Assembly: GCA_029959195.1 (NCBI GenBank)
Contig: CP114119.1
Coordinates: 2,976,001-3,040,000 of the forward strand
DNA: 64,000 nucleotides
Direction: 5' to 3'
Origin: Dictyophora rubrovolvata
Lineage: Eukaryota; Basidiomycota; Agaricomycetes; Phallales; Phallaceae
Positions 8,492 to 21,330 of this stretch are shown here, one piece after another. The position numbers and the translations under genes were made by a program. The notes under the pieces were generated by a model, which made no database searches, was not told where the DNA came from, and saw nothing but the letters and a program-made list of their open reading frames with translations. Numbering within the stretch: position 1 is the stretch's first letter; each line of letters opens with the position of its first letter.

Positions 8492-11002
8492 TCAGGAGCT
8501 CGGTGGCGATTTGGGTAATCGTTTGCGTTCTATCAATAGAACAAATAACCCTGCCAAAGCAGATACAACGATTAATGTGAGGAAGTTTCGTCTAAGAGCG
8601 ACCATATATGCGTTTATTACGGGCGATCGATAGGATGGTGGTAACTCCAGAACTGCCTCGATGCTTTCCAGGACCAGAGAACGGACTTCTGCCGGAAGTT
8701 TTATGTCAAGATGATCAATTTGAAACTGAAGTGTTCCCTCGAAAATGGCACCTCCGACACTAATTAAAATTTTAATCTTTTAAGTCATAAAGCGCAAAAT
8801 AAGAGAAAATAGACACATACGAGCTACCAATCGCGGCTGATAATACAGTGGAAAAGGAGATCAAGGAAGTAGCCTGTGGGATCATGTCTTCGTCATCGAC
8901 AAACTCTGCTTGGGCGACGAGAATCTAGCAAAAAAAAACGATGACATATTTGTCCAGAAACAGTCGTACAAAGAAAACTTACACAATTTTGGGAGGCAGG
9001 ACCGAGACCAAATCCCATAAGGACTTGACACACTGCAAGGAGGACCAGGCTCGTCGTGGCAGCAGGGATCGCTGCCAAGAGAGCGAATGCGATAGTCGCT
9101 AGGAAAGGTGGCAAGAACATCCAAATCCAAACATTCCCAGTTCTCTGGACTTTTTGTAAGCATAATGGGGCTGAGATTTGCTACTAACACACGCACCCCA
9201 ACTATAAAGCCACAAAGTATAGTGCCTATGTTGATGTGCGTTCAACTACCCATAAAAGAGGAAAGGTCTATTGACTGAGTGCTTACCAACAATGCACGCC
9301 CTAAATCACATGAGTAAACAGACGATGGTAAAGAAACTCGCAAATTGCACTCACGCTGAAGTGGGTAAAATTTGCAAGCCAGCTTCGATAGCAGACATTC
9401 CACGTAATTGATAAAGAATAGACTAATAAAGTTGTATTCTCCAACTTCGAACATAAAGAAGAACTCATAGACACAAACCAAGTAAAGCTAACAAAGGGTC
9501 AGCTAATCACTCAACAAACATTAAGCGACTTCCTTACCGCTGCTACAATTATTGACCATCGGGTAAATAGCTTCAAGGCGTAACAGAATAAGTAACAGCA
9601 GATTGATTTGTAAAGATACAATGTCATACCGAAGCCAAGAAACTTCCTAGAACGTTTCGCCTTTTCAACAACACAATCGGTAAGAGTGCTTCAGACCCCA
9701 TGCGTGCTTCCCAAGCAATGAATAGACATGAAAGAATACTGCCCTATTTCAAAGTGTTTAAATAGCGCAATGCAACTACACTAGTTCACTCACGATTACT
9801 ATGGTCGCTATAACTCCGGGATCGTTCCAAGGTTTTGTATTCCCACCCCATTGTAATCCGGTGAGCAATAGAAAGATGCCTGAAGTATTCAGAAATGACC
9901 CTATCCAGTCCATTCTCAACCACGAGTGCAAAAGGGAATTCTTCAATTCATGTGTTGTTGAACTGGGCACATTTGGAATAAAGAACACAAGCGCAAACAT
10001 AGCTATGCCGCCAATCTGACGAAGCATAATTGTGGCTTGAAGTGAAAAGAAGATTAGTCGAACTTACAGGAAGGTTTATATCTGGAATGGACAATTCGTA
10101 AAAAAAAATGTCAGAGGAAAGGGAAAAAACTCACAGAAACACCATCTTAGAATAATAATTTGTTACTTGTAATTGTCGATATGTATAATAAACGACGCAC
10201 CTAAAACTAAGACGTTCTGAAAGACTTATATGAGACAAAAAGTCCAAACGCGAGATGTAAAAAAGTTACCGGTGAGCGCACCACCTATCACCGGAGCGAT
10301 CAATATGCTACCGGCATAGACAGATATGATTATCCCAATAAGAAAAGATCGTTGACTAAGAGTGCTGATCTAAAACATTAGTTCTTGATTGAGTGATAAA
10401 CGCTGCAGCAGAGAAACAAGGAGGTTACATGAGTAATGATGGAGAGCACGGCTACCAAGATACCAGCAGCCCCAAGTCCAGCTATCCCTCTTCCAAGAAG
10501 AAGAACATCGATAGTAGGCGCAACTCCACAGATAAGACTCCCCAATTGAAAAACACTCAGTGCAGCAAAAAGAACATATTTCGGAGGCGTGAAGGTCAAT
10601 ATTTTCCCGTAAAGCAAGACGAAACAGGCCTTTCACATAATATTAATGAGCGGAAGTGGCCAACATTTGTTCAAGCTACGCTTACTTGAGAAATGAAATA
10701 AGCACTGCCTATCCAAGCAATATCATCAACCGCGTTGAATTCGGAAGTTATGGCGACGAGAGCAGTGTCGAGTATGCTCATGTCGAGACCCAACAATAAA
10801 GCCATTATCAGAAATGTCCTGTAAAAAGAACCTATAAGTTTCACGACATATATATGCTCAGTCGAAAGACATGCCCCTCAGCGACAATCAATCTAACACC
10901 ATTGAGCAAATACGACGATTTTTTCGCTTTCAAATGGTATAACGAGGAAGTTGAACCGCCCGGTGTTAATGGTTCGAGTTCGGCTTTTTGACTCAAGTCC
11001 AT
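8492..11002 (-). CDS. DHA2-family MFS transporter (spliced, micro-exons)
   Basis: This is a proton-linked major facilitator of the 14-helix drug:H+ antiporter-2 type, expected in the plasma or vacuolar membrane. The start at 11002 gives MDLSQKAELEPLTPGGS. The next exon gives LLGLDMSILDTALVAITSEF, then YGKILTFTPPKYV, LLLGRGIAGLGAAGI (the motif after helix 4), SVYAGSILIAPVIGGALT, RWCFYINLPIGG, WEARMGSEALLPIVLLKRR, QLRGMSAIEAGLQILPTSA and MGFGLGPASQNC. It ends SALAGLFVLLIERKRLPKSPPSS. RWCFYINLPIGG is assembled from three tiny exons: 10201-10216 (16 nt), 10135-10145 (11 nt) and 10068-10081 (14 nt), then an exon at 9794-10015. All junctions keep frame with GT/AG borders. The region 9.4-9.65 kb, around the loop before QLRGMSAIE, could not be resolved cleanly and may hide another small exon or damage. 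Substrate is unknown. Confidence 0.88.
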
Positions 11003-19245: not shown

Positions 19246-21330
19246 ATGGCCGACTCTGCTGCACCGACACCTATGTCGCAAAAATCGAAATTAAATTTTT
19301 TTGTTAAGCGAACGGATCAAGGCTCTAACTTGCATTATAAAGGGTTTATAAACTGTTTATAATGCAAGTTAGAGCCTTGATCTGTTCGCTTAACAAAAAA
19401 ATTTAATTTCGATTTTTGCGACATAATGTCAAATACAGCAAAATCGTATGCATTGGCATGGGTCTCTCAGGAATGTGTTTGGGGGCGCAGTTGAGGACGA
19501 AATGGGACTTTAAAGATATGCACTTTTATGATCGCAACGAGTCCCATTCGGGAACATGGTTGGAAAATCACTATCCTGGTGAGACATCCCCCACGTTCTT
19601 TTCAATTCATCAGTCATTTCTGATTCAATTAATAGGTGCTGGATGGTATGTTGTTCAGCGATACGATTATAAAATATCATAAACATTATCTCAACAAACT
19701 AATCGGTGTTTTAAGCGACGTTCCTGTCATCTTTTATTCTTTCTCTTTTGCCCAGGGTCAACCGTGGTCCCGACTTCAGCCTGGGTATGATGAACTACGA
19801 GACTACGGGTCCAGAGTGATGTCTAAATACGACTTACACCGCTATGCTACTTACCGAACTGTGTGCGAAGAAGCAATCTGGGACGAAAACCGATTCATTT
19901 GGTCGCTGCGCATGCGGAATCTCGTATCTGGCGAGAAGTTCATTCATGAATGTCCAATCTTAATTTCGGCGGTTGGATTTTTTAACCAACCTTACATTCC
20001 GGGAGCGGAAACGTTCCAATGAGAGAGTTTGCATACTGCACGATGGAGGGATGAGGTCTCGCTCGTTGGAAAAGACGTTGTCGTTCTTGGAAATGGCTGT
20101 ATGTGAATCGAGACTTTCTGTGTTATCATTTCATCTGTGAGGTGTTTAGGTTCAGCAACTCAATTGGTTCCTGCAATTATATCCAAAGCAAAAAGCGTCA
20201 CTCAAATTATCAGATCGCCTCATTGGGTGTTATTGTTCGATAATCTCCGACTCCCACAAACGTTTCTGAAGATTATGAGGGCCGTACCGTTTTTCACCAC
20301 GCTAATGCGCTGCATCGTTTTTGTATATCTTGAACTTGGGTGGTTGGCATTCATCATGAACAGCTGGGGAGAAAGATCACGGAAATCCATGGAACGAACA
20401 GGGAGGAACTATATTTTAACGAATGCTCCAGAGAAATATCGTGATATTTTGACCCCCGACTACGCCGCGGGGTGTAAGGTACCGTATCCACCTACAGAGT
20501 TTACGTATTTTTTATTAATCCCACGAATAAATATTTAGAGGCGAATCTGTGACTCAAACGGTGCCTACTTTGAAGCCCTTTATTCCGACAAAGTTTTCCT
20601 CACAAAGGAGACTGTTACCGAGATCCAGCCGAACGGGATCCTAACAGACAAAAGGTTTTATCCTGCCGATGTTATTGTCTACGCCACCGGGTTCAAAACT
20701 AACAACTCCCTTGGACAAATACGAATAAAAGGCGAAAATGGGATGGCACTCAACGAATATTGGAGTAAAGGAGGCGGTGCTTCAGCTTATAATACCATAG
20801 CGGTTGCTGGCTGTGCGTGGTTATGTATGAACTGACTCAACGCGACAAACGAATTCACGCTATTTTTTGTTGTTTAGACCCTAATTTCTTCATGTTATTC
20901 GGTCCAAATTCTGCCACGGGACATACCAGCTTACTCTTAACTGTTGAAAACACCGTTAATGGGATATTGAAATTGATCGCACCCGTTCTGAAAGGACGAG
21001 CGACCAAAATAGCAGTGAAAGAAACTGCGTATGAGAATTGGACGACCTTAGTCCAAGCGACGAGCAAAAAACGTGTCTTCAGCAAGGAAATATGCAGAAA
21101 TGTAAGCCTCATTTTGTTTTGTTAAATCTCTATGGACTAACAATGTATAAAAAAAAAAGTGGTATAATTCAGAGTCAGGTTGGAATAATAGTCTTTTCCC
21201 TTGGTCCCAGGTATACTTTTGGTGGCGTCAAAAGTTTCCAATCCGAAGTGACTGGGAGTATACTGTGCGTGCACTTTTTTTTTCGACGGATTTACTTATT
21301 ATTTTGATCTTCCAGTACGCCAAAAGTTAA
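19246..21330 (+). pseudogene. Baeyer-Villiger-type flavin monooxygenase, disrupted
   Basis: The family inserts oxygen next to a carbonyl using FAD and NADPH. Reading from ATG 19246 and skipping the palindromic insert gives MADSAAPTPNVKYSKIVCIG. The FAD motif GMGLSG follows, then WLENHYPGAGCDVPVIFYSF across a 10-nt micro-exon (19636-19645), and YDLHRYATYRTV. The NADPH motif is LGNGCSATQL, followed by VYATGFKTNN, NFFMLFGPNSATGHTS and a C-terminus YFWWRQKFPIRSDWEYT. The end at 21330 is inferred. Two lesions are visible: a 150-bp MITE in codon 9, and TGA at 20020-20022 where the fingerprint FxGxxxHxxxW should have Gly (FQ*ESLHTARW). All other exons splice in frame (for example 20099/20150, 20478/20538), so decay is recent or the damage is strain-specific. 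Confidence 0.88.
19274..19423. mobile_element. 150-bp palindromic MITE with TA target duplication
   Basis: The left arm 19274-19341 and right arm 19356-19423 are 68-bp inverted repeats with one mismatch (G against A, near 19313). They surround a 14-bp loop that is itself AT-rich. The termini are TGTCGC...GCGACA. TA dinucleotides at 19272-19273 and 19424-19425 flank the element, the hallmark of Tc1/mariner-type insertion. Removing the element with one TA joins ACACC-TAATGTC and restores an uninterrupted reading frame into the flavin-binding motif. The element has no coding capacity and would depend on a transposase supplied elsewhere. The palindrome is directly visible; the superfamily assignment is inferred from the TA duplication. 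Confidence 0.85.

Follow-up and report, generated by a model that had tools for sequence, protein, structure and literature searches.

A recently inserted, near-perfect palindromic MITE with PlavakaA-type ends in the first codons of a monooxygenase gene of Dictyophora rubrovolvata

We identified a TA-flanked foldback of 150 bp at positions 19272-19425 of a 64-kb window of the Dictyophora rubrovolvata genome, within the opening codons of a Baeyer-Villiger-type monooxygenase gene (the window is the whole stretch of DNA analysed, 64,000 nucleotides, C3:2976001-3040000; other loci are likewise given as contig and position). With a probability that we put at about 0.9, this foldback is a non-autonomous, near-perfect palindromic MITE of the PlavakaA lineage (CMCT clade), mobilised in trans by a Plavaka transposase. 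The features of PlavakaA that were found are TGT..ACA termini, 2-bp target-site duplications (TSDs) and, in elements that have the same ends, the Plavaka domain PF18759.

A palindrome scan of the 64-kb window (score of at least 14, loops of up to 30) returned the foldback as the sole gapped palindrome over the threshold, with a score of 66. Both the scan and the sequence itself agreed with the structure described in the initial annotation, in which two 68-bp arms with a single mismatch surround a 14-bp loop and TA stands on either side; the mismatch is G19314 against T19383, and the positions of these features and of the host gene are listed in Table 1. The predicted RNA fold of the palindrome had an energy of -113.4 kcal/mol, compared with a mean of -24.8 for shuffled sequences (sd 3.15; n=200), giving a z of -28. 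No second family end was found in the window, and one other place in it fits the 13-bp end with two mismatches.

Table 1. Features of the foldback and of the interrupted gene, in window positions.
Feature	Position	Strand	Basis
Codons 1-9 of the interrupted Baeyer-Villiger-type monooxygenase gene, from the inferred start	19246..19272	+	sequence, translation, paralogue
Left target-site duplication, TA	19272..19273	.	sequence, flank survey
Palindromic MITE, 150 bp, PlavakaA-type ends TGTCGC..GCGACA	19274..19423	.	palindrome scan, genome copies, flank survey
Left arm, 68 bp; shares its first 18 bp with the 5' end of the C6 Plavaka element	19274..19341	+	palindrome scan, element comparison
Loop, 14 bp	19342..19355	.	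palindrome scan, RNA fold
Right arm, 68 bp; mismatch 19314/19383, where other copies have CpG	19356..19423	-	palindrome scan, copy comparison
Right target-site duplication, TA	19424..19425	.	sequence, flank survey
Gene resumes after the insertion; FAD-binding motif GMGLSG	19426..19578	+	sequence, translation, paralogue
Inferred introns of the host gene	~19579-19635 and ~19648-19714	+	splice signals and paralogue
TGA stop in frame, within the Baeyer-Villiger signature (FQ*ESLHTARW)	20020..20022	+	translation; paralogue has a sense codon

The host gene was called a monooxygenase because one downstream exon piece matches cyclohexanone monooxygenases in PDB (E 6e-5), because the gene has GxGxxG and FxGxxxHxxxW motifs, which we take to mark Baeyer-Villiger-type monooxygenases, and because a paralogue of it is present in the genome. 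Five exon pieces of the gene, including the one with the PDB match, gave no Pfam family at E 0.001, and a Pfam scan of another, unrelated window ORF was likewise without a match. From the inferred start codon (19246-19248) the frame reads MADSAAPTP, ending at 19272, and once the 150 bp and one TA (152 bp in all) are taken out it continues as MADSAAPTPN-VKYSKIVCIGMGLSG; the proposal that removal of the palindrome and one TA rejoins the gene in frame was thus borne out when read off the sequence. The paralogue (C11:68021) is 64% alike to the window gene over 101 amino acids, and part of its region was examined. Its first exon, MTSPGSSKLT-VKYNEIVCVGLGLSG, is uninterrupted, and the number of residues before VKY is equal in the paralogue and in the insertion-free window gene. 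The initial annotation had described an insertion into the codons of this gene, and the palindrome does sit there; a simple knockout by it is no more than a candidate effect, with a separate in-frame stop lying downstream. Judging from the sequence, the host gene appears to have been broken twice, by the insertion and by the in-frame stop, in either order, and the stop may be an assembly error. Since the TGA at 20020-20022 is separate from the palindrome, the insertion is only a candidate for the first cause of gene breakage.

Copies of the foldback were searched for in the 28.24-Mb genome (11 contigs). A 72-bp query from the left side of the palindrome gave 38 matching pieces genome-wide, and the whole 154-bp query gave 58. 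The 20-bp end with up to three mismatches was found at 62 + 54 places in the genome, compared with 1 + 1 for the reversed control, and 100 of these 116 places were individually listed. All distinct two-ended places among the loci examined made up a survey set of 22 complete elements, with places known from the list only left out; their sizes are 65, 110, 150 (nine elements), 155, 194, 268, 689-745 (seven elements) and 1109 bp. Among the nine 150-bp copies, three do not differ at any of the 150 bases (C3:2995274, which is the window copy, C11:188913 and C9:1747544), and the other six are 1-6 bases away from them. Because there are three identical copies on three contigs and the exon of the paralogue is uninterrupted, the window copy is a recent mobile insertion, among the youngest copies of the family. 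The arm mismatch is common to both identical sister copies and is therefore older than the insertion in the window. The earlier description of the foldback as a very young and complete MITE with a 2-bp target duplication holds, and sister copies are present in the genome. Gene frames were scanned beside three of the 22 elements. The identical copy at C11:188913-189062 is flanked by two open frames with matches to the fungal protein kinase family PF17667, one covering profile positions 296-343 and the other 354-385, and appears to lie inside a gene as well, in an exon or an intron. A frame close to C11:1643504 is similar to GMC oxidoreductases, with a score under the family cut-off.

Variation among the nine 150-bp copies was concentrated at CpG sites: of the 13 variable columns, 9 coincide with one of the 16 positions at which at least one copy has CpG, against an expectation of 1.4 (hypergeometric p 8e-8, with columns taken as independent). 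The window copy's own arm mismatch falls at such a site. As the variation is mostly at CpG, it is consistent with methylated copies, and it may fairly be inferred that the copies are CpG-methylated. The genome has six matches to PF00145 (cytosine-methylase family) and 11 to PF02171 (Argonaute, Piwi); the suggestion of the initial annotation that a transcript through the foldback might enter RNA silencing is a hypothesis.

The flanks of the complete elements were compared across the family. An exact 2-bp duplication was present at 15 of the 22 elements, TA/TA at the window copy included, as the initial annotation had it for that copy, and a 3-bp duplication at none of the 22. When the right flanks were shuffled, a mean of 4.5 exact duplications was obtained, and 15 were reached in none of 20,000 shuffles. 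The duplicated dinucleotides are TA (eight elements), AA (three), AT (two), GA (one) and TC (one). The remaining seven elements have no exact duplication, with flanks of TC/TT, TA/AT, CA/TC, AA/TT, AG/TC, TG/TT and CA/AT; the first of these pairs belongs to the identical copy C9:1747544. Four further pairs outside the 22 were AC/AC, TA/TA and TC/TC, which match, and CA/TG, which does not. All 22 elements start with TGT and finish with ACA, having been chosen by an end pattern that itself begins with TGT.

Larger relatives that have TGTCGC termini together with a transposase domain were also found, in keeping with what the initial annotation had led one to look for. The Plavaka domain PF18759 gave 33 exon-level matches in the genome, whereas 14 control genomes gave none, a comparison of little weight since the named controls are bacteria and archaea. 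Three PF18759 loci are at least 99% alike (C6:819752, C7:712733 and C7:396299), and the end TGTCGCAAAAATCGAAA lies upstream of them at 8672, 8681 and 8645 bp, respectively; the dinucleotides just outside this end differ among the three elements (AA, CG and AT). A query with the 1198 bp at the start of the C6 element gave 99-100% matches at the three loci and, among the matches listed, no other at full length. This element (C6:811080-822693, 11.6 kb) is closed by TTTTTGCGACA on its far side and has AA/AA flanks. A further element on C4 (C4:2659564-2672790, 13.2 kb) also ends in TTTTTGCGACA, has TA/TA flanks and is related, being 79% and 81% alike in two stretches around the transposase. Exact identity between the MITE and the C6 element extends over 18 bp at the 5' end and 11 bp at the 3' end only, and the listed genome matches to the whole palindrome included no Plavaka element end. 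Just outside their left ends, the C4 element (L084) and the window MITE (19265-19273) have CGACACCTA in common, possibly by chance; within this sequence the beginning of the terminal repeat can be read in reverse complement. In a C7 Plavaka element, a frame on the minus strand (L062:264-575) weakly resembles protein kinase PF00069 (E 1.4e-4); this frame lies upstream of the Plavaka domain, scores under the family cut-off and is a possible passenger gene.

PlavakaA elements are characterised by 2-bp TSDs and by termini 5'-TGT..ACA-3' in the part of PMC12730594 that treats these families. The MITE family resembles the PlavakaA elements (CMCT clade) of that part of the source in its termini, in its 2-bp TSDs and in the presence of PF18759 in its partner elements, and unlike them it is represented in the window by 150 bp of almost entirely inverted repeat that have no coding capacity. 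Lineage A over lineage B is the probable assignment, on the strength of termini and duplications. According to the portions of PMC8290104 and PMC9674265 that concern Marasmius oreades, the non-autonomous DNA elements of that fungus likewise have terminal repeats in common with an autonomous relative; the active DNA elements described there are hAT, as opposed to Plavaka here. The KDZ group (Zisupton, Kyakuja, Dileera) was considered, being the other large fungal group, and rejected. The same part of PMC12730594 gives KDZ duplications of 7-8 bp (7 bp in Kyakuja, 8 bp in Zisupton), and none of the 22 elements has a duplication of more than 2 bp. PF18758 gave six matches, and the loci surrounding them (~3 kb each) were without an end at up to two mismatches of the 15-bp pattern. 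As for how the foldback would move, a Plavaka transposase would recognise the TGTCGCAAAAATCGAAAT terminus and mobilise the MITE in trans; it would excise the element and join it, by a presumed cut-and-paste reaction, to a target cut with a 2-bp stagger, and the two target bases, most often TA, would be duplicated on joining.

The initial annotation had instead taken the foldback for a Tc1/mariner-type MITE with a TA duplication. Tc1/mariner elements are known to duplicate TA only, and their MITEs are, like the present one, short and provided with terminal inverted repeats; TA does stand on both sides of the window copy and of eight of the 22 elements. In the present family, in contrast to those MITEs, TA is optional, and elements with the same ends contain the Plavaka domain PF18759. 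AA, AT, GA or TC accounts for seven of the 15 exact duplications, and a TA-bound family such as Tc1/mariner is therefore incompatible with the survey; with five dinucleotides duplicated and a Plavaka domain in the partner elements, the assignment failed, and the non-TA duplications already contradict it for the TGTCGCAAAAATCG-ended family. We leave it barely any chance. The TA flank of one copy is insufficient for a Tc1/mariner call, and the dinucleotide must be read across the family. Two further readings concern what the palindrome does in its gene. It might have arrived as a new, introner-like intron, in which the GT within the element's left terminus, at 19275, would be spliced to the AG at 19437-19438 to leave MADSAAPTP-I-KIVCIG in frame. 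This 164-nt GT..AG stretch can be read and keeps the frame, and the identical C11 copy between the two kinase gene pieces, in exon or intron, points the same way, but a third of such choices should keep the frame in any case, the donor GTCGCA does not resemble the inferred donors of the same gene (GTGAGA and GTATGT), the right end of the element is without an AG, and the host gene has the other in-frame stop as well. We regard this reading as quite unlikely. That the palindrome is a hairpin RNA gene or a regulatory palindrome under selection, rather than a mobile insertion, would suit its very stable hairpin and the Argonaute domain matches in the genome, but copies with 2-bp duplications stand at many places, the palindrome is missing from the paralogue, and its location is inside a coding exon, which leaves this explanation next to no probability.

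Several complete elements have been altered at or near the tip of the hairpin. The 268-bp copy (C7:415601-415868) consists of the palindrome with 118 bp inserted between positions 73 and 74 of 150, the centre being 75/76, and the insert aside it has three differences from the copy at C11:1643504, a perfect 150-bp palindrome. The 118-bp insert is 100% identical to C10:93572-93689; the stretch shared with C10 is at least 118 bp long, as the query ended at the junction, and near it there was no 20-bp-pattern end with up to two mismatches among the matches listed. In the 194-bp copy (C2:123973-124166) an inner part of the palindrome is repeated, and in the 110-bp (C1:2776181-2776290) and 65-bp (C2:611247-611311) copies parts have been lost unequally; these three rearranged copies all have exact 2-bp duplications. 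Our reading of the tip changes, in which one fragment was captured, is that an unstable palindrome broke or gave rise to template switching. More tentatively, and at somewhat less than even odds, breaks could arise at the hairpin apex and be repaired with a copy of other chromosomal DNA, so that perfect foldbacks would precede fragment-carrying MITEs. Between the perfect palindrome at C11:1643504 and the window copy, both arms differ at one pair, 37/114. The possibility that both arms change in concert was considered here and dropped, there being one case only and the change at position 37 standing alone in two other copies.

The copy with the tip insert suggests how a perfect palindrome could turn into a spacer-carrying MITE, a route that is open to testing. 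Our literature search, with most subscription journals and Repbase outside its range, returned no paper that pairs 'Plavaka' and 'MITE' as whole words. Overall, under the assignment proposed here, PlavakaA, a little-studied lineage of fungal transposons, gains a very young foldback MITE family, and the same genome supplies the candidate partner elements.
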